A DNA stretch of 32,417 nt from a virus, in the IMG/VR virus record IMGVR_UViG_3300047359_000290, positions 1-32,417 of that record. One strand, written 5' to 3'. The notes under the pieces were generated by a model. The model searched no databases. It was not told the origin of the DNA and was given only the letters and a program-made list of their open reading frames with translations. Both the position numbers and the translations under genes were made by a program. Shown in pieces: positions 12,383-31,821 of this stretch (its first letter is position 1; every line of letters begins with the position of its first letter).

Positions 12383-12458
12383 GCTGGTTTAGCTCAGTAG
12401 GTAGAGCAACTGATTTGTAATCAGTAGGTCGTCAGTTCGATTCCGACAATCAGCACCA
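12383..12458 (+). tRNA. tRNA-Thr (anticodon UGU), CCA encoded
   Basis: Acceptor GCTGGTT pairs with AATCAGC (one G-U), D-stem GCTC/GAGC, anticodon stem ACTGA/TCAGT with loop TTTGTAA (UGU, reads ACA), T-loop TTCGATT, and an encoded 3' CCA. One A-C mismatch is seen in the T-stem. 76 nt. It is the first of three tandem tRNAs, all with U at position 34. Confidence 0.93.
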
Positions 12459-12468
12459 TTTTAACCGT

Positions 12469-12544
12469 GGGGTTATAGCTCAGTAGGGAGAGCGACTGGT
12501 TTGCAATCAGTAGGTCGTGGGTTCGATTCCCTCTAACTCCACCA
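12469..12544 (+). tRNA. tRNA-Ala (anticodon UGC), CCA encoded
   Basis: Acceptor GGGGTTA pairs with TAACTCC (one G-U), D-stem GCTC/GAGC, anticodon stem ACTGG/TCAGT with loop TTTGCAA (UGC, reads GCA), T-loop TTCGATT, encoded CCA. The T-stem has one T-T mismatch. GCA is by far the preferred Ala codon in these genes (about 18 of 20 in nrdB by my count), so this tRNA fits the phage's own codon demand. Confidence 0.93.
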
Positions 12545-12551
12545 CGTTTTC

Positions 12552-12641
12552 GGAAGATTGGCAGAGTGGTTGAATGCACTTGACTTGAAATCAAGCATAC
12601 CTTCACGGGTATCGAGGGTTCGAATCCTTCATCTTCCGCCA
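12552..12641 (+). tRNA. tRNA-Ser (anticodon UGA), CCA encoded
   Basis: Class II tRNA with a long variable arm (paired TACC and GGTA). Acceptor GGAAGAT pairs with ATCTTCC, anticodon stem CTTGA/TCAAG with loop CTTGAAA (UGA, reads UCA), T-loop TTCGAAT, discriminator G and encoded CCA. 90 nt. A spurious minus-strand frame runs across this cluster and is not a gene. Confidence 0.94.
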
Positions 12642-15452: not shown

Positions 15453-16499
15453 ATGTTATGGTTAGAACGAAAATACTTGAGTATGGTCGTGTCCTCGTTG
15501 GACATGGCAAAATGGAAAGGGGATACTACCCTTAATCACCGTTGTCTCTATTGTGGAGACTCATCAAAAAACACTTACAAAGCACGTGGATACCACTTTG
15601 CAGTGGAACAGTCCTTTATCTATAAGTGTCATAATTGTGGTAAATCCACATCATCCGTAAACTTTATCAAAGACCATTTCCCTGTTATTCATAAAGAATA
15701 TGTAAAGGAGTGGTTAAAGGAAAGTGGTCGTAAACCTAAGAACCATGCAAGTGGACATAAGATGCCATCTGCAAACACTTTTAAATTTACACCCAAAACA
15801 GAGATAAATACAAAAGATATTATGACTGTTGAAAACCTAAAATTTCTAATGAAACCATGCAACGAAGTTGCAGTTGCAAAGAAATATCTAGAAGACAGAA
15901 AGATACCCAAAGTACATTTCAATGAGTTATGGTATACAGAACATCCACAATCTTTAAGCCTTTTATCTTCTAAATACAAAGACCGAGTTCTTGGAAACGA
16001 CCCAAGAATCATATTACCATTCTTCAGTGAGGATGGTGAACTCATAGGAATCAGTGGAAGAGCAATAAATGACTCACCACTAAGATACTTAACTATGAGA
16101 TTCAGAGATGATTTGCCACTCATCTTTAATCTTAATAAAGTGGACAGAACTAAAACAATCTATGTGACTGAAGGGCCGATAGATAGTTTATTCCTACCCA
16201 ATTCTATTGCAGTTGCAGGTAGTGATTTCAAAAAAATTGACGAGACGATAAAAGATAGTTCGGTACTCATATTTGATAATGAACCAAGAAACAAAGAAAT
16301 ACTAAAAAAGATAGACGAGGTAATAGACCTTGGATATTCGGTATGTGTATGGAACGATAGAAGAGTTGATGCTTACAAAGATATCAATGAAATGATTCTT
16401 AATGGATTGACAGAACAAGAAGTTAAGAGTATAATTGATGAATGCACAACCGATGGTCTAAGTGCTAAACTTAAATTACAGGAATACAAAAAGATATGA
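15453..16499 (+). CDS. 61: DNA primase, T4 gene 61 type
   Basis: 348 residues from ATG 15453 (MLWLERKYLS); T4 gp61 is about 342. An N-terminal zinc finger (HRCLYCGDS ... YKCHNCGKS, two CxxC pairs) is followed by a linker and a TOPRIM-type core with VTEGPIDSLFL (catalytic Glu) and SVLIFDNEPRNKEI (acidic metal site). The family makes pentaribonucleotide primers in complex with the gene 41 helicase, whose gene starts this window. The start was chosen at 15453 because 15444 lies within the -10 hexamer. It is followed by nrdA with an ATGA overlap, so primase and nucleotide reduction are in one operon. Confidence 0.93.
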   Translation: MLWLERKYLSMVVSSLDMAKWKGDTTLNHRCLYCGDSSKNTYKARGYHFAVEQSFIYKCHNCGKSTSSVNFIKDHFPVIHKEYVKEWLKESGRKPKNHASGHKMPSANTFKFTPKTEINTKDIMTVENLKFLMKPCNEVAVAKKYLEDRKIPKVHFNELWYTEHPQSLSLLSSKYKDRVLGNDPRIILPFFSEDGELIGISGRAINDSPLRYLTMRFRDDLPLIFNLNKVDRTKTIYVTEGPIDSLFLPNSIAVAGSDFKKIDETIKDSSVLIFDNEPRNKEILKKIDEVIDLGYSVCVWNDRRVDAYKDINEMILNGLTEQEVKSIIDECTTDGLSAKLKLQEYKKI

Positions 16500-18811
16500 G
16501 TCAGACAACAATACAAGTAATTAAATCAGATGGTTCTAAGGTAGAGATAAACTTAGAGAAGATTCATAGAATGGTAGAGAAAGCATGTAAAGGAATTACA
16601 GGTGTATCAGAATCATTAGTTGAAATGAATAGTGGATTACAGTTCTATGATGGAATTACCACAACAGACATCCAAAAGATTTTAGTTAAATCTGCAAGTG
16701 ATTTGATATCACTAGAGAATCCTAATTACCAATTCGTTGCAGCCAGACTATTACTGTTTGGAATACAGAAACAAGTATTCAATACCAAGTGGAAAGACTC
16801 AACAATTTATCCACCACTTTATGATATCATAGAAAGAAACATCAATAGAAATGTATACGATTCTAGTATCTTAAACATCTACACTAAAGATGAGATAGAC
16901 CAGTGCAACAAATACATAAGACACAACAGAGACTTAGACTTCACATATGCAGGACTACAGCAAATAGTAGACAAGTACCTAGTGCAAGACAGAAGTAATG
17001 GAGAGGTGTTTGAGACACCACAATTCATGTACATGTTAATTGCAATGACATTGTTTAGAAATTATGATAAAGAGAGTAGACTAGAATATGTTAAAAAATA
17101 CTATGATGCAATCTCAACATATAAAATCAATATCCCAACACCAATCATGGCAGGGGTCAGAACACCATTAAGACAATTTGCATCATGTGTTCTCGTTGAC
17201 TCTGATGATTCATTAGATTCAATTTTCAGTTCAGACATGGCAATTGGAAGATATGTTGCACAAAGAGCAGGTATAGGAATCAATGCAGGTCGTATTAGAG
17301 GACTAGGTTCTAAGATTAGAGGTGGAGAGGTTCAACACACTGGTGTCATTCCATTCCTTAAGAAGTTTGAAACAACTGTTAGATGTTGTACTCAAAACGG
17401 AGTGAGGGGAGGAAGTGCAACTGTTCATTTTCCTATCTGGCATCAAGAGATAGAAGATATCATAGTGTTAAAGAACAACAAAGGAACAGAAGATAACAGA
17501 GTCAGAAAATTAGATTACTCTATTCAGATATCAGAACTGTTCTACAAGAGATTTTTAAACAACGAAGACATAACATTGTTCAGTCCACATGAGGTAGATG
17601 GACTATATGAGGCATTCGGAACACCCGAGTTTGATGAACTCTATGAGAAATATGAACGTGCAACTTCTATACCTAAGACCAAAATAAGTGCAAGAGAATT
17701 ATTTACTGATATCCTAAAAGAAAGAGCAGAGACTGGTAGAATCTATATTATGAATATAGACCATTCTAATTCTCATAGTTCATTCTTAGATAAGGTCAAC
17801 ATGAGTAACCTATGTCAAGAGATTACATTACCAACAGACCCTATCAACCACATTGATGGTAAAGGTGAAATTGCACTATGTATCTTATCTGCAATCAATG
17901 TAGGTATTATTAAGATGGAAGAGTTACAGAGTTTATGTGACCTTGCAGTCAGAGGTTTGGAAGAACTAATTGATTTCCAAGAGTATCCAGTAGAAGCAGC
18001 CAAGAGGTCAACACTTGCACGTAGGTCATTGGGTATTGGTTACATCGGTCTTGCACATTTCCTTGCAAAGAATAAGGTGAAGTACAATGACCCCGAAGCA
18101 CATAAATTGGTGCATGACTTAACAGAACAGTTTCAATATCATTTACTATGTGCATCTAATCAAATTGCATCAGAGAAAGGTGCATGTGATTACTTCGATA
18201 GAACTAAGTATGCAAAAGGACTATTACCAATAGACCACTATAAGAAAGATGTCGACACAATTGTTCCTAATAAACTAACATGTGACTGGGATAAACTTAG
18301 AACTAGAATCAAAGTACATGGACTAAGACACTCCACATTGACTGCACAGATGCCGTCAGAGAGCTCCTCAGTCGTCTCTAATGCAACGAATGGGATAGAA
18401 CCACCAAGAGACTACCTTAGTGTTAAGAAGAGTAAAAAAGGAACACTTAAACAGGTAGTTCCACAATATTCTATGTTAAAAAACTCTTATACATTACTAT
18501 GGGACATGGAAGACAATGATGGATACATCAAAATAGTTGCAGTGATGCAGAAGTTCTTTGACCAAGCAATTAGTGGAAACTGGTCATACAATCCCGAGAA
18601 TTATGATAACGGAGAAGTTCCAGTATCAATCATGGCAAAAGACTTATTGAACACTTACAAATATGGTTGGAAGACATCATATTACCAAAACACTATGGAT
18701 GGTAAAACAGAAGATGTTGTTAAAGATGAGAACTCTGCAATGAATGATTATGTTCCACCAATGATGGATTCACCAAATGATGAGGAGGATTGTGATGCCT
18801 GTGCCATTTAA
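16496..18811 (+). CDS. nrdA: Ribonucleotide reductase class Ia, large (alpha) subunit NrdA
   Basis: 771 residues, full length. An N-terminal ATP-cone lies at about residues 5-95. Key residues align with E. coli NrdA almost position for position: Cys231 (FASCVLVD), Asn438/Cys440/Glu442 (NLCQEI) and Cys462 (ALCILSA) at the active site, Tyr729-Tyr730 (SYYQNT) of the radical path, and the C-terminal redox pair Cys766/Cys769 (DCDACAI). It reduces ribonucleoside diphosphates with NrdB, recharged by glutaredoxin (gene at 21742). No intein or split is seen. ATGA overlap with the primase gene; a strong AGGAGG inside its 3' end serves the next gene. Confidence 0.97.
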   Translation: MSQTTIQVIKSDGSKVEINLEKIHRMVEKACKGITGVSESLVEMNSGLQFYDGITTTDIQKILVKSASDLISLENPNYQFVAARLLLFGIQKQVFNTKWKDSTIYPPLYDIIERNINRNVYDSSILNIYTKDEIDQCNKYIRHNRDLDFTYAGLQQIVDKYLVQDRSNGEVFETPQFMYMLIAMTLFRNYDKESRLEYVKKYYDAISTYKINIPTPIMAGVRTPLRQFASCVLVDSDDSLDSIFSSDMAIGRYVAQRAGIGINAGRIRGLGSKIRGGEVQHTGVIPFLKKFETTVRCCTQNGVRGGSATVHFPIWHQEIEDIIVLKNNKGTEDNRVRKLDYSIQISELFYKRFLNNEDITLFSPHEVDGLYEAFGTPEFDELYEKYERATSIPKTKISARELFTDILKERAETGRIYIMNIDHSNSHSSFLDKVNMSNLCQEITLPTDPINHIDGKGEIALCILSAINVGIIKMEELQSLCDLAVRGLEELIDFQEYPVEAAKRSTLARRSLGIGYIGLAHFLAKNKVKYNDPEAHKLVHDLTEQFQYHLLCASNQIASEKGACDYFDRTKYAKGLLPIDHYKKDVDTIVPNKLTCDWDKLRTRIKVHGLRHSTLTAQMPSESSSVVSNATNGIEPPRDYLSVKKSKKGTLKQVVPQYSMLKNSYTLLWDMEDNDGYIKIVAVMQKFFDQAISGNWSYNPENYDNGEVPVSIMAKDLLNTYKYGWKTSYYQNTMDGKTEDVVKDENSAMNDYVPPMMDSPNDEEDCDACAI

Positions 18812-19751
18812 GGATAGAACTGAAAAAATTCAGTATCAAGATGAGACGGAAAAAATGCCAGGCAAAATATCACCTCTTACATTGAAGTTTATAGAAGATG
18901 GGTATGTGGTATTGAAGAACTTTATTCCTAAAGAAATTACTAACATGACATTGGATGCATGGAAAGTATCAGAGAGAGACCCAAAACACAATGAACATTT
19001 CTTTCATAGAGAAGACGACATCATTCATGATTCACCCCAAGAAACTTTAAATAAATCTGTTGGTGCATATAACTTTCCACCTGCAGTTGCTTTGCATAGG
19101 TGGATGAGAGATAATTTAGATAATGTATTTGATATTAAATTAGTTGATACCTATTCATATACTAGAAAATATGACAGAGGTGCATTTCTAAAAGCACATA
19201 CCGATAGACCATCATGTGAAATATCTTGCACTATATGTTTAGACTATGCATCTGATGATAATACTCCATGGAAGATATGGGTGCAGAAGGATAAAGACTA
19301 TGTTAATGCAGGTGCAGATGTAGAATTCTTAGGAAGTGTTTCACAAAAATTACCACATAGAGAAAGAGTTGGAACTCCAATTTCATTAGAGGTAGGAGAT
19401 GTTTTACTTTATCAAGGGCCAAATGCAATTCACTGGAGAGACAAATTTTTAGGTGAATATAGTTATCATATGTTTTTACATTTTATAAATCCTGCAGGAT
19501 ATATTACTGCATTTCCCGAGGCGTCAATAGGATATCTAGGAAGAGGTGCAGACGAAAGAGATGCATCTGTATTTGCATATGATGGAAGACCAAATAGATA
19601 TGCCCCATCAGAAGATAAGTATGAACAATTCGATAAGGCACAGAAAATTTGGGATGGTTGGGATGAGTTAGATGGGAAGTATGGGAAGAAATCTGATTAT
19701 CTAAATAACTATTCCTATTTAACCAAAGCAGAAATTAAGAAAAAGAAATGA
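18795..19751 (+). CDS. 2OG-Fe(II) oxygenase-like protein inserted between nrdA and nrdB (318 aa)
   Basis: The start is fixed at ATG 18795 by AGGAGG at 18783-18788 (6-nt spacer), inside the end of nrdA. The facial-triad pattern is visible: KAHTDRPSCEISC (H-x-D), NAIHWRDKF (distal His) followed by a candidate 2OG-binding basic residue, with TISLEVGDVLLYQGP between, typical of the double-stranded beta-helix. Leading motif GYVVLKNFIPKEIT is common in these enzymes. The substrate is unknown; its operon position suggests co-expression with nucleotide reduction rather than a direct role in it. The C-terminus (about 70 residues, Tyr/Asp/Lys-rich) is extra. ATGA overlap with nrdB. Confidence 0.85.
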   Translation: MPVPFKDRTEKIQYQDETEKMPGKISPLTLKFIEDGYVVLKNFIPKEITNMTLDAWKVSERDPKHNEHFFHREDDIIHDSPQETLNKSVGAYNFPPAVALHRWMRDNLDNVFDIKLVDTYSYTRKYDRGAFLKAHTDRPSCEISCTICLDYASDDNTPWKIWVQKDKDYVNAGADVEFLGSVSQKLPHRERVGTPISLEVGDVLLYQGPNAIHWRDKFLGEYSYHMFLHFINPAGYITAFPEASIGYLGRGADERDASVFAYDGRPNRYAPSEDKYEQFDKAQKIWDGWDELDGKYGKKSDYLNNYSYLTKAEIKKKK

Positions 19752-20845
19752 CAGTATTTAATAAAAATAAAGTTGACTTCACGAAGAACAAACTGTTCTT
19801 TGGAGAGGAGTTAAACACACAAAGATTTGATGAGTTCAAGTATCCAATATTTGATAAACTCACTCAAAAACAATTAGGATTCTTTTGGAGACCCGAAGAG
19901 GTATCTCTGCAGAAAGACAGAGCAGATTATCAGAATCTTAATGATGCACAAAAACACATCTTTACCTCTAATTTGAGGTATCAAACTTTACTCGACTCGG
20001 TTCAAGGTAGAGCTCCATCCATAGCATTTTTACCGTTTGTGACTTTGCCTGAACTTGAGTCTTGTATTATTACATGGGACTTTATGGAAACAATCCATAG
20101 TAGAAGTTATACCCATATCATTAAAAACATTTATGCAGACCCTAGTGATATCTTTGACACTATACTTGATGAAGAAGCAATTGTAAAACGTGCAGAGATG
20201 GTTACGGAGAAGTATGATGAGTTTATTGCACTTGGTCGTAGGAGATTACTAGGTCTTAAAGTAGATGAATACGATTTATATAAGGCACTATACCTTGCAT
20301 TGATATCAGTTAACATCTTAGAAGGAATTAGATTCTTCGTATCCTTTGCATGTTCATTCGGATTCGGAGAACTTAAGATGATGGAAGGAAGTGCAAAGAT
20401 TATCTCTCTTATTGCAAGAGACGAATCACAACACCTTGCAATATCACAACACATACTTAAAGCATATAAGAACCAAGAGAATGATAAGTTGATGAATCAA
20501 GTTATGAAAGATTGTGAGAAAGAAGTATATGAGTTATACGAAGATGCAGTCAAACAAGAAAAGGACTGGGCAGACTTCTTATTCCAACATGGTTCAATGA
20601 TTGGATTATCAACACAACTACTAGGAAACTATGTTGAGTTTATTGCAAACAAAAGACTTCGTGCTATAGGACTAAATCCTATCTATGAGATATCTTCAAC
20701 AAATAACCCTTTACCATGGACACAACATTGGTTCAACAGTAGAGGACTTCAGAATGCACCACAAGAGACGGAGATTGAATCTTATGTCATTGGTGGTATT
20801 AAACAAGATGTAGATGATTCTACCTTTGAGGACTTTAAATTATAG
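19748..20845 (+). CDS. nrdB: Ribonucleotide reductase class Ia, small (beta) subunit NrdB
   Basis: 365 residues. Diiron ligands and radical tyrosine are all present at one position less than in E. coli: Asp83 (TLLDSVQGR), Glu114 and His117 (ETIHSRS), Tyr121 (SRSYTHI), with Glu192 (LEGIRFF), Glu226 and His229 (ARDESQHL) further on. It therefore should carry a normal diferric-tyrosyl cofactor and pair with NrdA from 16496. I counted about 18 GCA and 2 GCT among its Ala codons, with no GCC or GCG. ATGA overlap upstream; the next ATG follows the stop directly. Confidence 0.97.
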   Translation: MTVFNKNKVDFTKNKLFFGEELNTQRFDEFKYPIFDKLTQKQLGFFWRPEEVSLQKDRADYQNLNDAQKHIFTSNLRYQTLLDSVQGRAPSIAFLPFVTLPELESCIITWDFMETIHSRSYTHIIKNIYADPSDIFDTILDEEAIVKRAEMVTEKYDEFIALGRRRLLGLKVDEYDLYKALYLALISVNILEGIRFFVSFACSFGFGELKMMEGSAKIISLIARDESQHLAISQHILKAYKNQENDKLMNQVMKDCEKEVYELYEDAVKQEKDWADFLFQHGSMIGLSTQLLGNYVEFIANKRLRAIGLNPIYEISSTNNPLPWTQHWFNSRGLQNAPQETEIESYVIGGIKQDVDDSTFEDFKL

Positions 20846-21472
20846 ATGGAAAGTATTGTTATGTTTAGTGGTGGAGTAGAATCCGTTGCACTATTGAATT
20901 GGTTAAAGGGAAGAAATGAGAATGTGGTTGCATTGCATAGTATTTTTCCCAATCCCGAATCACAAGCAAACAAGTTAAGAGAAAATGTAGTAGAGATATG
21001 TAATCTATTAAAGACACCACTTATCATACATGAACATCCAACCTATTCACCTAACCCGTATTTTGGTGAATCAGAGGAGTACTTTCATTCATCTAAACAC
21101 TGGATACTTGCATGTTGCACTGCTGCACTTAAGTATCCACAAGTTAAGAAATTCTACTGGGGAGTTAACAGTGGGATATTAGAATATGGTGATGGAGGTG
21201 ATTACCACTTCCTACCAAGAGCATGGGAATTTCAAATTGCATTTGAGTTCTTTGGAAGAATAATGAATGGACTTGACCATGACCAAAAAATGTATCCACC
21301 ATTGAGTGGATGGACTAAGAAAAAGATGTGGGAAAGTATTCCCGACAATATCAAACCACTTGTGGTGAGTTGTAGTTATCCAACAGATGATTTACAACCT
21401 TGCAATGTTTGTTATAAGTGTAAAGAATACCAATCCATGTCTCATAAACATATATACACGGAAGGACTATAA
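20846..21472 (+). CDS. QueC-like PP-loop enzyme (7-cyano-7-deazaguanine synthase family)
   Basis: 208 residues. The N-terminal PP-loop MFSGGVESVALLNWL (SGGxxS, with Glu where most QueC proteins have Asp) binds ATP. The C-terminal SCSYPTDDLQPCNVCYKCKE supplies four cysteines in the C-x8-C-x2-C-x2-C zinc pattern of QueC. QueC converts 7-carboxy-7-deazaguanine to preQ0, used for tRNA queuosine or, in some phages, for 7-deazaguanine DNA modification. No FolE, QueD, QueE or DpdA-type gene is in this window, so partners would lie elsewhere or in the host. It begins the base after the nrdB stop, within the nucleotide operon. Confidence 0.85.
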   Translation: MESIVMFSGGVESVALLNWLKGRNENVVALHSIFPNPESQANKLRENVVEICNLLKTPLIIHEHPTYSPNPYFGESEEYFHSSKHWILACCTAALKYPQVKKFYWGVNSGILEYGDGGDYHFLPRAWEFQIAFEFFGRIMNGLDHDQKMYPPLSGWTKKKMWESIPDNIKPLVVSCSYPTDDLQPCNVCYKCKEYQSMSHKHIYTEGL

Positions 21473-21639
21473 TGGATGGTGTAATTTTAATAGCAATACT
21501 TTGGTTGGCATTAGTGTCATTGATAACCTTTTTCTTTTTTGATGAGGGAACTAAAGGTGTTGAGAAAGACCCTTATTATGGTCGTAAAACTGGAACAATA
21601 TATACTGCAAAGAAAGAAAGGAGTGATTACTTATTATGA
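21472..21639 (+). CDS. Small membrane protein (55 aa)
   Basis: TAATG overlap with the QueC-like gene. The first 23 residues (GVILIAILWLALVSLITFFF) form one transmembrane helix, followed by an acidic then basic tail (DEGTKGVEKDPYYGRKTGTI) with YYGRK. It is too short for a named family. Continuous one-base overlaps with both neighbours support it as a real gene. Confidence 0.65.
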   Translation: MDGVILIAILWLALVSLITFFFFDEGTKGVEKDPYYGRKTGTIYTAKKERSDYLL

Positions 21640-21741: not shown

Positions 21742-21981
21742 ATGATTGAAATATTTGGAAAAACACAATGTCCATTTTGTGATAAAGCAAAGTCTTTATG
21801 TGAAAAGGAAGGACTAGAATACACTTACAAACAGTTGGATACTGATTTCACTAGAGAAGAACTCTTTGAAGAGTTTCCTACTGCAAGAACCTTTCCACAA
21901 ATCAGAGTGGACGGTAATGCAATAGGTGGTTACGACCAACTTGCAGAATATGTAAAACACGGAGATGTTTGGGAAGACTAA
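21742..21981 (+). CDS. Glutaredoxin (79 aa)
   Basis: A compact thioredoxin fold with the dithiol active site CPFC (residues 10-13), the cis-Pro loop RTFPQIRVDG and the GGYDQLAEY glutathione-binding segment. The length is normal for phage or bacterial glutaredoxins. It most likely reduces the C-terminal disulfide of the NrdA encoded at 16496, as T4 NrdC does. GAGGT precedes the ATG. Confidence 0.92.
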   Translation: MIEIFGKTQCPFCDKAKSLCEKEGLEYTYKQLDTDFTREELFEEFPTARTFPQIRVDGNAIGGYDQLAEYVKHGDVWED

Positions 21982-23222: not shown

Positions 23223-23825
23223 ATGAAATTCGAAAATAGGGGAGACCATATCGGTGTCTTCCATGATGCAATATCTGATAGAATCTGCAATTATATTCTT
23301 GATAATTACAAATATTATGAAGAGGGTGGATGGACTACACATAGAAGAGAATATGATGGTGGTCTTGCAATTGATAAATCTGATAGAGCTGCAACCTTTG
23401 GTGCAATTTCACAAAGACCCCAATACAATAGATTAAGAGCAGAAAGAGAAGGATTCTTCTTTGACATTCTTAACAATGACCTTTTCCCTGCATATAAACA
23501 TGCATATAGTTTAAGAGAGGATGTTGATGTCTTTAGTTTTGATGGAAAGATACAGAAGACCGAAAAAACTGAGGGATTTCATCAATGGCATTATGAGGCA
23601 GATGGCCCACGTTCAAGACATAGAGTTCTTGCATGGATGTTATATCTAAACGATATCGAAGAGGGTGGAGAAACAGAATTTCTATATCAGAGTTGCAGAT
23701 TTAAACCAAGAAAGGGAACTGTTTTGATATGGCCTGGGCAATTCACACATATGCATCGTGGAAACCCACCTTTAAATGAGACTAAATACATATGTACAGG
23801 ATGGGGAGAATATTACAATGAGTAA
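23223..23825 (+). CDS. 2OG-Fe(II) oxygenase, prolyl-4-hydroxylase-like (200 aa)
   Basis: FHQWHYEADGP provides the His-x-Asp/Glu pair. HRVLAWMLYLNDIEEGGETE is the typical strand-turn pattern, and FKPRKGTVLIWPGQFTHMHR carries the distal His and a basic residue for 2OG. Complete triad, so it is probably active. In phages this family is common but substrates are unknown. ATG 23223 follows the nucleotidase by 6 nt and overlaps the next gene by 8. Confidence 0.88.
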   Translation: MKFENRGDHIGVFHDAISDRICNYILDNYKYYEEGGWTTHRREYDGGLAIDKSDRAATFGAISQRPQYNRLRAEREGFFFDILNNDLFPAYKHAYSLREDVDVFSFDGKIQKTEKTEGFHQWHYEADGPRSRHRVLAWMLYLNDIEEGGETEFLYQSCRFKPRKGTVLIWPGQFTHMHRGNPPLNETKYICTGWGEYYNE

Positions 23826-24437: not shown

Positions 24438-24915
24438 TGGTTGTTCACTCATACCTACAAGAGGTATTGAGATTAACAGCACACCAGTTAAGATAGACAT
24501 TTTACAACCCGACTTACCTCGACCAGTAGAATTGACTGCACCAAAATGGTTCGTAGTATCTGAAGCAAAGATAGTCAACCCATGTGTTAAGTCTTTATCA
24601 TTCGAACCTAAGAAATTCAATGACGAAGGTGTAGAACAACTTAAAAGACCTAAAACATGTGAGTTAACAGAAAGAGAGAATCCCGAGTGGCCAGTAGGTT
24701 ATACATATCTCGATAGATTCTTAGACGAAATGAAAACACAAAACAATGGTGATGTGTTATTCGTTGCAACAACTGTTGGTGATTACAAAGTCATGGCAGA
24801 AGACATGCAAGAACTAAAACGATACATCAAACAAATTGGTGAAGTCGTAATCTATTATCGTAATGTAACCATTAACGATGAAGATGCAGTTGGTGTTAAA
24901 GTCAAAAAGAAGTGA
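24388..24915 (+). CDS. Lipoprotein, o-spanin candidate (175 aa)
   Basis: ATG 24388 preceded by GGAGGG, overlapping the i-spanin candidate by 50 nt. MIQKNFINLLCLTLLISGCS is a lipoprotein signal with lipobox LISG-C, so the mature protein would begin at Cys and anchor in the outer membrane. The segment EINSTPVKIDILQPDLPRPV is Pro-rich like o-spanins, and TAPKWFVVSEAKIVNPC follows. The extra roughly 100 residues with an alpha/beta look (GDVLFVATTVGDYKVMAEDM) make it much longer than classical Rz1, so it may be a bifunctional lipoprotein. Confidence 0.65.
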   Translation: MIQKNFINLLCLTLLISGCSLIPTRGIEINSTPVKIDILQPDLPRPVELTAPKWFVVSEAKIVNPCVKSLSFEPKKFNDEGVEQLKRPKTCELTERENPEWPVGYTYLDRFLDEMKTQNNGDVLFVATTVGDYKVMAEDMQELKRYIKQIGEVVIYYRNVTINDEDAVGVKVKKK

Positions 24916-25679
24916 AACCAATAACTAACATCAATAGGGCAAAATGGTCTCCTGCACCTACAGCAGAATTGTTGGAATTATTCCCAACTTCAATGTTAAA
25001 GGGTGAGTTTGATTTACCACATGATGTTATTGCAGAGGACTGTCGTAGATTAGTTGCAGAGGTTAAGAACAGATATCCTAATGACACTGCAAGGAACTAC
25101 ACCACTTACTTTGACGAAGACTTAAGAGAAGAGACACATCAATTGCCATGGTTTACTGATTTTAGTAATACTGCAAAGGATACTTACATTGCATACATAG
25201 AATCACAATACAACATAGAAGTCAGAAACCTATGCAGAAATGATATACACCTCTTTGCATGGATAAGTGTTTATAATACACCACATCATCATCCAACACA
25301 TAATCATGAACATTGTCATGTTAGTGGAACTTACTATGTTCAATGTGAGAGAGACCAACAACCAATTAAATTTTTGAACCCAAGTTTACTTGCAACTGCA
25401 AATTTAAGAGCAGTATCGAATCCCCAAGAACAAGTGAGGCCAGATATGACAGTTATTGGGTCGGATGGACATCAACAAGAAGTACACTTTCATAATCAGA
25501 CAGGTGAATTTTTACTATGGCCCTCCTATCTACAACATGAAGTTCCAGCACATACTAATGGAGATGTTGATACCTATGAGAGAATTGCAATATCATTTAA
25601 TTTCAAACACAATGAACCCATTACAGATAACATGACTGGAACAAACCTACATTACGGAGAGGTGCTAACAGGTGAATAA
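24912..25679 (+). CDS. 2OG-Fe(II) oxygenase-like protein, TIGR02466-like (255 aa)
   Basis: GTG start at 24912 overlapping the previous TGA (GTGA). The core reads LFAWISVYNTPHHHPTHNHE followed by CHVSGTYYVQ, then GEFLLWPSYLQHEVPAH, with a downstream RIAISFNFK. These match the iron and 2OG ligand regions of the phage TIGR02466 oxygenase family as I remember it. An unusually His-rich stretch (PHHHPTHNHEHCH) surrounds the first ligand. Substrate unknown. Part of a compact run of oxygenase-like genes. Confidence 0.82.
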   Translation: MKPITNINRAKWSPAPTAELLELFPTSMLKGEFDLPHDVIAEDCRRLVAEVKNRYPNDTARNYTTYFDEDLREETHQLPWFTDFSNTAKDTYIAYIESQYNIEVRNLCRNDIHLFAWISVYNTPHHHPTHNHEHCHVSGTYYVQCERDQQPIKFLNPSLLATANLRAVSNPQEQVRPDMTVIGSDGHQQEVHFHNQTGEFLLWPSYLQHEVPAHTNGDVDTYERIAISFNFKHNEPITDNMTGTNLHYGEVLTGE

Positions 25680-26352
25680 GACATTTATATACGATGAGTT
25701 GTTTGCAGTCAACCCAAAACTAGAACATGAGTTTGATGGACTAACAATTACTATTCGTAATTTCTACGAGAACCCACAAGATATACATGACTTCGTAATG
25801 AATCGTCAGTTCCCTATGTGGAAATACAACACTGAAAGACAATCAAAGAATGGTATTGAATACAATGACTGTAGAATTGTAGATAAGATAGGGCATCCTA
25901 CAAGAAAGTATTTTGCAGACTTCGATAGAATACAAAACATATGCAGACAGTATTATTGGAAAGGGAATTATGATTGGACAAAGTTGCATGAGTTCAACTG
26001 TTTCCAAACCATAACAGAGTTTGATACCAAGATGCAACACTATCCACATATAGATTCTACCTTTGACACCCCCGACCACTTATCAACACTTAACATGCTT
26101 GTATATTTGGATAAACATCAGAGTGGTGGAACTGCAGTTTATAGAGGTGAGTGGATAACCAACGAAGAACACTTAGGTGTTCTATATCCAGTAGAAGAAA
26201 CCTTTGAGGTAGAACGAATCATCCCTGCAGAGTTTAACACTTGTGTTATATTTCCAGGCAATAGATTGCACGGTGCATGGATTGACGACTACACTAAATA
26301 TTCGGAAGAAAACTGGAGAATATCACAAGTCCAGTTTCTACAACCAAAATAG
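25672..26352 (+). CDS. 2OG-Fe(II) oxygenase-like protein, DUF6445-like (226 aa)
   Basis: GTG start at 25672, overlapping the previous gene by 8 nt. MQHYPHIDSTF contains the H-x-D pair; STLNMLVYLDKHQSGGTAVY is the beta-turn core; NTCVIFPGNRLHGAWIDD carries the distal His; ENWRISQVQFL supplies the Arg. The N-terminal region (LTITIRNFYENPQDIHDFVM) resembles the start of DUF6445-type proteins from memory. Complete triad, probably active. The following gene starts 8 nt after its stop. Confidence 0.8.
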   Translation: MNKTFIYDELFAVNPKLEHEFDGLTITIRNFYENPQDIHDFVMNRQFPMWKYNTERQSKNGIEYNDCRIVDKIGHPTRKYFADFDRIQNICRQYYWKGNYDWTKLHEFNCFQTITEFDTKMQHYPHIDSTFDTPDHLSTLNMLVYLDKHQSGGTAVYRGEWITNEEHLGVLYPVEETFEVERIIPAEFNTCVIFPGNRLHGAWIDDYTKYSEENWRISQVQFLQPK

Positions 26353-27364: not shown

Positions 27365-27582
27365 TGCCAATTAAATACGGAAAGACAGTAATTGCTAAAG
27401 ATAGAAATACTGGAAAACTAACAACAACTCATGATTACATTAAACAGAAATCAATCCAAGAATTGATTGAAGCATTTAATAAACCAGTCGTACCTAAACT
27501 AAGACAAAAGGTTAAAAACGAACTTGTCAGAAGAGGTGGAGTGGTATTTGTGGAGAAAGAGAATGAAACCTCTCTCATCTAA
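27364..27582 (+). CDS. Conserved small phage protein (72 aa)
   Basis: MPIKYGKTVIAKDRNTGKLT then THDYIKQKSIQELIEAFNKP and a basic end. I recall short proteins with the pattern GKTVIAKDRxTGKLT in marine T4-like phages, of unknown function. TAATG overlap upstream and a 20-nt overlap with the following oxygenase-like gene. Confidence 0.78.
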   Translation: MPIKYGKTVIAKDRNTGKLTTTHDYIKQKSIQELIEAFNKPVVPKLRQKVKNELVRRGGVVFVEKENETSLI

Positions 27583-28261
27583 AAAGATACAACACTTTCC
27601 CGATTGGGAATCACAACCAATAAATGGTGAAACATTTTCACCATTCGGGCCAGTTGTATATCTCGGAAAAATACATGACGAATTTATAGATGAGTTGAAT
27701 ACACATATCACAAACCTAAATGCATCGGGTGATGCAACAGATGTAAAAGGTCAACTTGCAGGTAGAGTTGAGAAACAACTCTTTCTACAGGACTTGATAT
27801 CTGATAAGTTAGAAGGACATATAAGACAACATATCGTAAACTTCACTAACCAACAGAACATGGGAATGGAAGACCACCATATAGTATCTGAGGGAGTTTG
27901 GTGCAATTGTGCATCAGCAAGAGATTTCAATCCAAGACACCAACATACAGGTAATTTCTCTTATGTTATCTACACCAAAAACACTGTAGACCCTACAGAT
28001 GTTGCCAATAACCCGTATGATAATGCACATGGTGACGAACCTAGTATTGCAGGTAATATAGAGTTATACTATGGTGAAATGTTGTTTATGAATCAATCAA
28101 GATTTATGCATATACCAGCAGAAGGAGACATCCTAGTCTTCCCTGCATGGTTACAACATTCAGTATATCCATTCTATTGTGATGGAGAAAGATGGAGTGT
28201 TGCAGGAAACTATAGGTTTGCCACTTACGAGGAACTTAACCCACCACAAGAAACAGACTAG
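27563..28261 (+). CDS. 2OG-Fe(II) oxygenase-like protein (232 aa)
   Basis: The start is set at ATG 27563 (GGAG 10 nt upstream, MKPLSSKKIQHFPDWESQ); the longer frame from 27524 lies deeper in the previous gene. DFNPRHQHTGNFSYVIYT holds the first ligands (H-x-H type), and GDILVFPAWLQHSVYPFY the distal His, followed by RWSVAGNYRF. NPRHQHTGNFSYVIY is a motif I recall from a T4-like phage oxygenase family. Probable active Fe(II) enzyme; substrate unknown. Its stop overlaps the GTG of the next gene. Confidence 0.8.
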   Translation: MKPLSSKKIQHFPDWESQPINGETFSPFGPVVYLGKIHDEFIDELNTHITNLNASGDATDVKGQLAGRVEKQLFLQDLISDKLEGHIRQHIVNFTNQQNMGMEDHHIVSEGVWCNCASARDFNPRHQHTGNFSYVIYTKNTVDPTDVANNPYDNAHGDEPSIAGNIELYYGEMLFMNQSRFMHIPAEGDILVFPAWLQHSVYPFYCDGERWSVAGNYRFATYEELNPPQETD

Positions 28262-30286: not shown

Positions 30287-31207
30287 ATGGCAACAGAAAT
30301 CGTACTGATAAAAAACGGAAACACCTCTGTCGAGGAAATTAATAGTGCTTACATCCGACTCAAAAACTTACGAGTCGACACCATATACCCTAAAGACCAC
30401 AACACCGTCAGTTTTAATTGTTATACCAATACAGGAACAGAGGGACTATTGGACGAAATCAAACCCATCGAATTTAATGCATTAGAGGGAGTCAATCCCG
30501 AATCACCATGGAATAAAATACTACTCATGAACAGAGGAGTCGGTGGATTCCAAGACCGTGCTAATCAGAACATTAAAGTCCTTATTATGGACACCAAACT
30601 ATTTCCAAGGAATACCAGTCAGAACACCATATTAGACTTCATTAATGCAAAGGGTAAAACCACAGAGGTCTATGAGATACTCGAACCCGAAACCATTAAA
30701 ACCATCAAAGAACAAGAACTCCCTTACATGGTGATGCCTACGAAATGGTGGACAGACGAAGATACCACGACACAAACGGACTATGCTCATTTCTTCACTG
30801 CATTCAACTACAGAGACCTGCATGAGATATACGAGACCTTTAAGGCAGACCCAACAGGACTCATATCCAAATACGGAGACACCAAACAAGGAGTGCAAAA
30901 GTACATCGAAGACACCTTTAAAGGAGTGGTATTACCTACAGGATGTGGAGAGTTCGGAATCTACTATATCAACAACAAAGAATCCAATCAAAGACTGATA
31001 CAAGAATGGGAAGACAATGTCAAATGTTATTTCCCACAAGAATGGTCAATCCCCAATGAAGAAGACATGGATGCCGATTATATATCCTATGACCACGAAT
31101 GGAGAGATATATCAGAACAAGCAAAGTTCGTCTATGCACAAACCCAAGACGAAGATACTCACACAAAAGCCGACCTCTACTTCAGAACATGGATACACAA
31201 AGAGTAA
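30287..31207 (+). CDS. Hypothetical protein, unusual codon habit (306 aa)
   Basis: A good frame with RBS GGAG and a late promoter. It starts MATEIVLIKNGNTSVEEINS and contains SPWNKILLMNRGVGGFQDRA, YMVMPTKWWTDEDTTTQTDY and VLPTGCGEFGIYYINNKESN. The Cys/Trp-rich centre could be a globular enzyme-like fold, but no motif is recognised. Codon use differs from genes upstream: ACC, GAC, CCC and GCC are frequent and Ala is about 7 GCA, 3 GCT and 2 GCC. This may mean recent acquisition or different selection. The next gene overlaps its 3' end by 19 nt. Confidence 0.8.
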   Translation: MATEIVLIKNGNTSVEEINSAYIRLKNLRVDTIYPKDHNTVSFNCYTNTGTEGLLDEIKPIEFNALEGVNPESPWNKILLMNRGVGGFQDRANQNIKVLIMDTKLFPRNTSQNTILDFINAKGKTTEVYEILEPETIKTIKEQELPYMVMPTKWWTDEDTTTQTDYAHFFTAFNYRDLHEIYETFKADPTGLISKYGDTKQGVQKYIEDTFKGVVLPTGCGEFGIYYINNKESNQRLIQEWEDNVKCYFPQEWSIPNEEDMDADYISYDHEWRDISEQAKFVYAQTQDEDTHTKADLYFRTWIHKE

Positions 31208-31821
31208 TCGACCACTATTCTCATGTAAGATACCCAAACTTCTTTACAGAGGACGAATGCAAACACATAGGGTACATACTCACACGGGACGAGCATAAGA
31301 TATTAGAGATAAAGAACACCTCTAAGTCCGTATATAAGGGACTCACCAAACAACACCAAGTATACAACTGGTTACAACACCCCGACATCAGACCACTGAA
31401 TATACCCAAACGTGTCTTCCAACTACCCGAATTCCAAGACGAAGACGAACTGAGGATACAATGCTGGGGGAACATACTACGACACGGAGAAGACCTATTA
31501 ACTCACAACCACGGTCATGACATAGAAGACGAAGAGAGACAATCGGGAATGCAACACTTTTATGCTATGAATACGTTTATAGATGGTGAAGAACCCTCGT
31601 ATACACACTATGATGACACTGGTAAGACACAGAATGTAAGAGGAGAACTCCATGTGATTGGATGCTTACTTATGCATGGTGTTAGACGTAATATGTATAA
31701 GAAACCACGAATAAGTCTTGCAATGGACGTACATCTCAAAGAAGCATTCGATACCATACCCAATGAGTATCTAAAATACCGTATATTACCCTTTAAAAGG
31801 AGTGAAGTAGAGGGACTCTGA
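31189..31821 (+). CDS. 2OG-Fe(II) oxygenase-like protein (210 aa)
   Basis: The start is taken at ATG 31189 (MDTQRVIDHYSHVRYPNFFT); the longer frame from 31099 is deep in the previous gene. LLTHNHGHDIEDEERQSGMQ holds a His-rich first ligand region, HFYAMNTFIDGEEPSYTHYD follows, and HVIGCLLMHGVRRNMYKKPR contains a distal His and the basic residues, then ISLAMDVHL. The layout is like the oxygenase genes at 24912 and 27563. It shares the C-rich codon style of the gene before it. The last base of its stop begins an inverted repeat. Confidence 0.72.
   Translation: MDTQRVIDHYSHVRYPNFFTEDECKHIGYILTRDEHKILEIKNTSKSVYKGLTKQHQVYNWLQHPDIRPLNIPKRVFQLPEFQDEDELRIQCWGNILRHGEDLLTHNHGHDIEDEERQSGMQHFYAMNTFIDGEEPSYTHYDDTGKTQNVRGELHVIGCLLMHGVRRNMYKKPRISLAMDVHLKEAFDTIPNEYLKYRILPFKRSEVEGL

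Follow-up and report, generated by a model that had tools for sequence, protein, structure and literature searches.

A lone QueC-fold gene beside nrdB in marine T4-like viruses, an accessory gene that is probably not a preQ0 synthase

The stretch of DNA analysed here (the window) is the entire 32,417-bp IMG/VR record IMGVR_UViG_3300047359_000290, which is very probably a fragment of a genome. The 15 phage matches listed for its NrdA, all at 72–73% identity, are Synechococcus cyanophages and one marine Kyanoviridae virus, and the virus is therefore taken as a marine T4-like phage. The nrdB stop codon ends at 20,845; the ATG of a QueC-like gene is at 20,846 and its stop ends at 21,472, so that the two genes follow each other with zero gap. 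The first-pass annotation had placed at exactly these coordinates, inside the nucleotide-reduction operon, a QueC-like ORF with a PP-loop and a four-Cys site; the neighbouring genes for NrdA, NrdB and glutaredoxin are as it described, and both the loop (residues 8–13) and the four cysteines are present. The features of the locus are the following.

16496..18811, + strand: nrdA
18777..19751, + strand: 324-aa ORF (X324) between nrdA and nrdB, with the PHROG label 'ferrochelatase' and no Pfam match
19748..20845, + strand: nrdB, directly 5′ of the QueC-like gene
20846..21472, + strand: lone gene of 208 aa, assigned to the QueC fold (N-type ATP pyrophosphatase) from its sequence, profiles and a predicted fold nearest Cap9/QueC
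20867..20884, + strand: PP-loop SGGVES, residues 8–13, with Glu where Asp is usual; all 13 aligned rows have it
21161..21232, + strand: residues 106–129 (GVNSGILEYGDGGDYHFLPRAWEF), the region of QueC's YPDC motif, of low model confidence
21317..21319, + strand: K158 of a PL...TK motif, invariant, matching the conserved PL....K of QueC and Cap9
21371..21421, + strand: four-Cys site C176/C186/C189/C192, placed by sequence and alignment at the position of the QueC zinc site
21472..21639, + strand: 55-aa ORF that overlaps the QueC-like gene at its stop codon (TAATG)
21742..21981, + strand: glutaredoxin gene (grx), the right border of a variable nrdB–grx gap
23223..23825, + strand: 2OG-Fe(II) oxygenase gene, whose relatives are commoner with the QueC-like gene than without it, not independently of descent

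Five 2OG-Fe(II) oxygenase-like ORFs are found within 9 kb (23223–23825, 24912–25679, 25672–26352, 27524–28261 and 31099–31821); support is weak for the ORF at 25672, which also matches DUF6445, and for the one at 31099, which is below cut-off.

The QueC-like ORF is a real gene and not a chance ORF. Four IMG/VR contigs encode the protein at 93–100% identity (the one at 100% may be the same virus), and dN/dS between the window copy and those of L002, L003 and L004 is 0.14–0.18, which indicates that the product is under selection. The nrdB gene of the same group is far more constrained (dN/dS 0.025–0.031).

Relatives were sought in several ways. A tblastn search with the protein in 50,697 phage records had no match at E 0.01; relaxing the threshold to E 10 yielded one weak match, 'ExsB' of PIS 136, with E 0.01. 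In PIS 136 (L037:4001–5436) the lone gene overlaps an ATP-grasp (RimK/D-Ala ligase-like) gene, possibly a ligase pair. Two scans of bacterial genome contigs, sensitive to close relatives only, gave zero relatives, and the SGGVES subfamily has so far been seen in viruses only. A DNA pattern for FSGGVES yielded 64 stretches, which were then filtered with an HMM, and an alignment scan yielded 21 loci; together they delineate a family at 46–50% identity, with the distant members L072, L123 and L124 at 27–35% from the alignment. An independent scan used NrdB as the query and retained the best 80 of at least 599 loci. Among these 80, 13 carry the QueC-like gene, in all 13 cases between nrdB and grx; four of the 13 (L164, L168, L178 and L182) were absent from the earlier scan lists, and all four have SGGVES. 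The same holds for two further copies found in fetched records (G015 and G016). The Glu of the loop is thus no artefact of a pattern anchored on Glu.

The gene is accessory in marine T4-like viruses. While X324 was matched upstream of nrdB in all 80 related loci (the best 80 of at least 599 NrdB loci), the region downstream varies: grx is visible in 72 of the 80, the nrdB–grx gap is 25 bp or less in 17 of these 72, and otherwise the gap holds a spacer, one of several small ORFs or the QueC-like gene. Among loci with at least 1,700 bp beyond nrdB, the gene is present in 12 of 70. In a quick tree of NrdB from 74 loci, five changes are required to explain the presence label, and supported branches force at least three of them. 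'Absent' here means absent within 5 kb of nrdB, and two loci counted as absent, L180 (G016) and L186 (G015), have the gene at a second site, beside HSP20 and near the DNA polymerase gene. Accessory status follows from the variable gap, the tree changes and this second site taken together. The record G014, fetched whole, has zero copies at E 1e-5.

In L202, L203 and L207 the nrdB–grx gap contains a short ORF that, by our own reading of its sequence, resembles a MazG-type pyrophosphohydrolase. In G015 the QueC-like gene overlaps a 2OG-Fe(II) oxygenase gene. An oxygenase of the 23223 type is present in 7 of 8 loci with the QueC-like gene vs 5 of 45 without it (p = 3.7e-5); a linkage between the two was rejected, as the association comes down to just two independent pairs on supported tree branches.

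Across the 13 aligned rows the invariant positions are SGGVES, W86, G106, K158, C176, C189, C192 and E194, the last directly after the four-Cys site; C186 is kept in 12 of 13. The spacing in the window protein is C176-x9-C186-x2-C189-x2-C192. With relaxed spacing the four-Cys site is found in 15 of 16 family rows (L124 is the exception; G015 and G016 have x5), and the site probably holds zinc, judging by its position. The first-pass annotation had remarked on the Glu in place of Asp in the loop, and Glu is indeed found in every aligned row. In QatC the SGGxDS loop holds the ATP phosphates, and its Asp coordinates them (PMC13279940). The Asp-to-Glu exchange could lower or abolish ATP use, and a protein that has lost ATP use might serve as a decoy or binding protein. 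We consider this extremely improbable: the remaining loop residues, K158 and three of the four Cys do not vary, C186 hardly does, and such conservation speaks for a retained catalytic site; Mg may still be bound by the Glu, and SGGVES is also found in other viral PP-loop families.

The first-pass annotation had suggested that the gene makes preQ0 for 7-deazaguanine modification of phage DNA, with the caveat that other PP-loop chemistry was possible. A 2026 survey of PF06508 defines QueC by SGGxDS, YxQxHxxE, VPxRN, YPDC and C(x)8CxxCxxC (PMC13329287). In our alignment SGGVES is found in 16 of 16 family rows, and the controls have SGGxDS in 5 of 5. The motifs YxQxHxxE, VPxRN and YPDC are each found in 0 of 16 family rows, and all three are present in E. 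coli QueC, 2pg3 and 3bl5. The window protein shares with canonical QueC (PF06508 cluster 1, TIGR00364; structures 3bl5 and 2pg3) the predicted fold, the position of the four Cys and PL....K, but lacks the three motifs and the P-loop Asp. The QueC domain of phage 9g has VPxRN while YxQxHxxE and YPDC are missing; according to the account of that phage in PMC6884629 it works in vivo in DNA modification with DpdA, although an E. coli queC deletion was not complemented by gat-queC of 9g. Motif loss alone therefore does not exclude QueC activity.

The equivalog and canonical-profile scores point in the same direction as the motifs. The TIGR00364 equivalog model gave the window protein 14.4 bits (cut-off 150.3), and the Pfam QueC model (PF06508) gave 23.8 bits, just over its cut-off of 22 and for residues 3–54 only; in a six-frame search the Pfam score was 15.2 bits, below cut-off. 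PHROG 1550 ('QueC-like') matched the C-terminal part of the protein and, in the six-frame search, both ends in order. The sole phrog_1550 match of pelagiphage HTVC008M was set aside, as by our own reading it looks like an NAD synthetase. With a profile built from four canonical QueC domains, and 990 shuffles as background, the window protein scored 4.9 bits (best shuffle 7.5), eight other lone proteins 6.4–28.0 and the canonical QueC of the related record G017 148.6. The distant members L072 (28.0) and L123 (25.0) are well above the shuffles, and their kinship with QueC is visible in the sequence. When ten published lone proteins of phages were made into a profile, it gave 50.9 bits to the window protein, with 9.6 as the highest score among 1000 shuffles, and also scored canonical QueC at 50.1 and Cap9 at 38.9; it thus indicates superfamily kinship and is no proof of a separate clade.

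Partner genes were sought in the window record and in larger relatives. The first-pass annotation had noted the lack of partners, and in the 32-kb window record there are indeed zero matches to the folE, PTPS (queD) and radical SAM models; such genes do occur in a relative. The TGT model gave no match in the window either, but it likewise failed to detect the DpdA known from phage 9g, so that its silence says nothing about dpdA. In G017 (153,514 bp, the contig of L182) the lone gene follows nrdB at 32.1 kb. The ends of this contig carry, in order, HSP20, redoxin, queD, queE, DUF6884, queC, a probable amidotransferase, folE and a 459-aa protein, then DNA polymerase. This gene order led us to infer that the contig ends adjoin; an exact terminal repeat of 10–200 bases was sought and none was found. 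Here queD matches Pfam PTPS over cut-off (58.5 bits) with 36.9 bits of the 89.25 required by the QueD equivalog, queE matches radical SAM over cut-off (38.4 bits) and five QueE models at 44–66 bits, all under their cut-offs, and folE (188.7 bits) is over cut-off. The canonical queC scores over cut-off with both PF06508 (186.9 bits) and TIGR00364 (172.7 bits); with these two models the lone protein of G017 reaches 20.5 and 19.0 bits. The 459-aa protein may be a TGT, which a DSGGLQ motif alone suggests, and searches with Pfam, NCBIfam, PHROGs, PDB sequences and the 9g DpdA gave it no tie to DpdA. For the 226-aa protein, the assignment as a glutamine amidotransferase comes solely from its first residues, MCAIFG; searches with Pfam, NCBIfam and PDB sequences had no informative match.

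A canonical QueC is thus also encoded in G017, so the lone gene is not needed there as the pathway's QueC and its enzyme is probably not QueC. In G005 (145,922 bp), where the lone gene again follows nrdB, searches that had phage 9g as positive control did not find folE, queD or a relative of the 9g DpdA, and there was no match to any pathway protein of G017. Radical SAM searches gave four virus matches besides 9g, of which the G005 copy alone was read; as a candidate QueE it was rejected, since a second Cys region at its C-terminus and a neighbour that resembles an epimerase make it, by our own reading, unlike QueE. The preQ0 cluster was found in 1 of 11 records, five of which are shorter than 82 kb and four of which were not fetched to the last base. 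Accordingly the lone gene is not the QueC of a preQ0 pathway, nor does it appear to require one, with the completeness of G005 unproven.

The alternative of a functional QueC, which would convert CDG of host or phage origin to preQ0 and so supply 7-deazaguanine for the phage DNA, would be in keeping with the QueC fold, the four Cys, the narrow Pfam match, the presence of 7-deazaguanine synthesis genes in a relative and the functional 9g domain that also lacks two motifs. We nevertheless hold it to be very improbable, given the three missing substrate motifs, the equivalog and canonical-profile scores, the separate canonical QueC of G017 and the failure to find folE, queD and a 9g-type dpdA in G005. 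The lone gene is probably not a preQ0 synthase as far as its sequence can tell, and the caveat of other PP-loop chemistry proved well placed.

The part of the first-pass proposal that concerned restriction also has two sides. GATC is absent from the window as had been noted (0 found, 119 expected), and so is CCGG (0, with 17.5 expected). G005 has 0 GATC of 560 expected and 4 CCGG of 108, and G017 has 1 GATC of 529 expected and 0 CCGG of 73.5. With avoidance defined as observed/expected below 0.1, GATC is avoided in 11 of 12 loci with the gene vs 37 of 58 without the gene near nrdB (p = 0.087). Since so many gene-less loci avoid GATC, and L072 has the gene and a normal GATC count (58 of 62 expected), GATC loss is independent of the lone gene, and the linkage that had been drawn between the two is rejected. 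The use of GATC loss as proof of unmodified DNA was dropped as well: G017 combines GATC loss with a 7-deazaguanine cluster, so GATC loss and base modification are not mutually exclusive. What stands of the 7-deazaguanine idea is that the synthesis genes do occur in this virus group, in a virus with GATC loss; the assignment of this gene as their QueC does not.

Other DNA-modification genes are found in the relatives. A cassette with a C5 cytosine methyltransferase and a TET/JBP oxygenase is present in G005 (70–77 kb, L132), G007 (L250–L251), G009 (L267–L268) and G010 (L264); it also holds a P-loop kinase and a third protein that is well conserved in three of them and 24% identical in G007. The cassette lies between HSP20/redoxin and DNA polymerase, where G017 (L233, L226) has the 7-deazaguanine cluster instead, and G014 and G015 have other genes between redoxin and DNA polymerase. 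This is apparently a swap site for DNA-modification cassettes. TET is over cut-off in 4 of 11 records of one set (G005, G007, G009 and G010) and in 0 of 12 of a second set, in which three, G017 included, have weak matches; many of these records are fragments. A linkage of the lone gene with TET was rejected on these counts.

The lone enzyme might modify bases or nucleotides, either as dNTPs or within DNA; its reaction would branch off a hypermodification pathway for cytosine or guanine and exploit the position of the gene beside the ribonucleotide reductase (RNR) genes. Its location in the nrd operon in 13 of the 80 loci (best 80 of at least 599) suggests this, as do the G015 and G016 copies, which lie beside HSP20 near DNA polymerase, a site of DNA-modification cassettes in others, and the four relatives with TET over cut-off. 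There is, however, no constant cassette (G017 is without TET over cut-off, G005 without preQ0 genes), and the nrdB–grx gap also houses unrelated small ORFs; we regard this explanation as unlikely.

The fold was predicted with AF2 from 13 sequences (mean pLDDT 67.7, pTM 0.71). The quality of the model is moderate and the register of the active site uncertain, with pLDDT below 50 for residues 68–81, 109–124, 178–185 and 202–208. In the model the SGGxxS loop follows strand 3–6, which places it after strand 1 of a HUP-type Rossmann fold. The best structural match in the PDB is Cap9 of type IV CBASS (PDB 9nto; Z 16.0, rmsd 3.1, 170 residues), followed by the QueC structures 3bl5 (Z 15.2) and 2pg3 (Z 14.2), Cap9 and 3bl5 being tied within 1 Z; ThiI (Z 13.7), TtuA/NcsA (about 12) and QatC (11.9) are lower. 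The named enzymes among the best 50 structure rows are, we assume, all PP-loop enzymes; the title of row 9kpv names no enzyme. An hhalign comparison with a five-row QueC/Cap9 set gave 98%, and a profile search of PDB sequences ranked QueC first (31.1 and 30.4 bits) and Cap9 next (25.1); a phmmer search of the PDB with the single protein found just two matches, both at E close to 0.9. In its predicted fold the protein is closest to Cap9 and QueC.

PP-loop enzymes of the QueC-type fold also carry out sulfur transfer, and an enzyme of the ThiI, TtuA or NcsA type acting on phage or host tRNA would belong to the same superfamily, as the structural matches reflect. The window has three tRNA genes at 12383–12641, for Thr(TGT), Ala(TGC) and Ser(TGA). 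Sulfur transfer appears quite improbable to us, because the four Cys align with the QueC zinc site, the structural scores with these enzymes are lower and Pfam shows no further domain.

The substrate region deserves separate consideration. Cap9 and QueC share ATP-dependent chemistry on a carboxylate, that of CDG, and hold the 7-deazaguanine ring with a Tyr and an Asp; in QatC two Thr replace these residues, which its authors take to suggest another substrate (PMC13279940). In the window protein Y114 and D116 are in the right region for such a pair, in a poorly modelled loop, and Y114-x-D116 could match the CDG-binding Y-x-D, which would speak for a working QueC. Within residues 106–129, G106 is invariant and D119 is found in 12 of 13 rows, but L164, L168 and L072 have not kept Y114, and G015 and G016 have Phe in its place. 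From the loss of Y114 and the poor modelling of the loop we infer a different substrate. A mapping of Y114-x-D116, K84-H85 and F34-x-N36 onto YPDC, RN and YxQ is possible by spacing and was not used as evidence, because the alignments disagree and model confidence is in part low.

Phage proteins of this general kind have been described before. Hutinet et al. 2019 kept the singleton QueC-like proteins of SP-15, SFP10, ECML-4 and Muddy apart and judged that they probably form a different branch of the N-type ATP pyrophosphatases (PMC6884629). Like those of Salmonella phage SFP10, Escherichia phage ECML-4, Bacillus phage SP-15 and Mycobacterium phage Muddy, the window gene is lone and its product has a PP-loop and four Cys; all stand apart from canonical QueC and without pathway neighbours (for the window, within the 32-kb record). 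The ten singletons compared have SGGxDS, or TGGVDS in 2050H1, where the window protein has SGGVES, and they are 15–25% identical to it. Judged by sequence, the window gene belongs to an SGGVES subfamily of these already described proteins. For phage Sajous1, the list for purified virions includes a single spectrum of the QueC-like protein gp66 (PMC10892097). We found no paper in the open-licence PMC literature that assigns a function to the singleton group.

We give about an even chance to the reading that the product is a divergent QueC-fold ATP pyrophosphatase, carried as accessory cargo, that is not a preQ0 synthase and that would adenylate and form an amide on another substrate. Such an enzyme would bind ATP-Mg and work like Cap9 or the first half of QueC: it would adenylate an oxo group, a carboxylate or the like, on some substrate that is not free 7-carboxy-7-deazaguanine bound for preQ0, and the activated group would pass to an amine to give an amide. 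The substrate may be a small molecule, the N-terminus of a protein, or a base or nucleotide that carries a modification.

QueC-fold proteins have lately been found to act in CBASS and Qat immunity (PMC13279940). Given these roles, a branch seen so far only in viruses, in which both the loop and the substrate site are altered, is a promising place to look for ATP-dependent conjugation chemistry of a new kind. A ligase like Cap9 or QatC would attach a 7-deazaguanine-type base or related acid to the N-terminus of a phage or host protein, for example to sabotage CBASS IV or Qat. Cap9 is the best structural match (with QueC within 1 Z of it), nearly the full length (residues 2–199, 33.5 bits) is covered by the PADLOC model named QueC, and the protein is compact like Cap9, which has about 185 aa (PMC13329287). 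Cap9 retains SGGxDS, YxQ(x)5E, RN and H(x)4YxDC (PMC13329287), whereas SGGxDS, RN and YxDC are missing in 16 of 16 family rows and a YxQ(x)5-7E pattern is found in L056 only. QatC (qatABCD) likewise has a QueC fold with an altered substrate site (PMC13279940) but keeps SGGxDS and has about 400 aa (PMC13329287), and the 208-aa window protein is without the QatC extensions. The gene adjoins RNR genes, and no candidate substrate protein emerged. On balance a Cap9- or QatC-like ligase of this description is rather unlikely.

A bolder version, on which we would stake little, is that a virus-encoded QueC-fold ligase, closest in fold to the CBASS effector-modifier Cap9, joins 7-deazaguanine or a similar acid to a protein (an immune protein, for instance) and is traded as a one-gene accessory at RNR or DNA-modification sites. 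We found no report of nucleobase–protein conjugation by phages in the open-licence PMC literature. For experimental tests the family offers compact proteins as well as related viruses with and without the gene.

Phage genes of the lone type are often labelled as queuosine or preQ0 synthesis genes, for example 'QueC-like queuosine biosynthesis'. The occurrence of a canonical QueC and the divergent lone form in one contig (G017) separates the two kinds, and a lone QueC-like gene is by itself no sign of 7-deazaguanine DNA.

In phage Muddy the lone gene lies between the genes for the major tail protein and the tail assembly chaperone. SGGVES was also seen in two other viral PP-loop families (loci L044, L054, L067, L075 and L096; L045, L046, L048 and others): one, without the four Cys, has proteins of about 320–360 aa, and the second, of about 260 aa, resembles PAPS reductase by our own reading.
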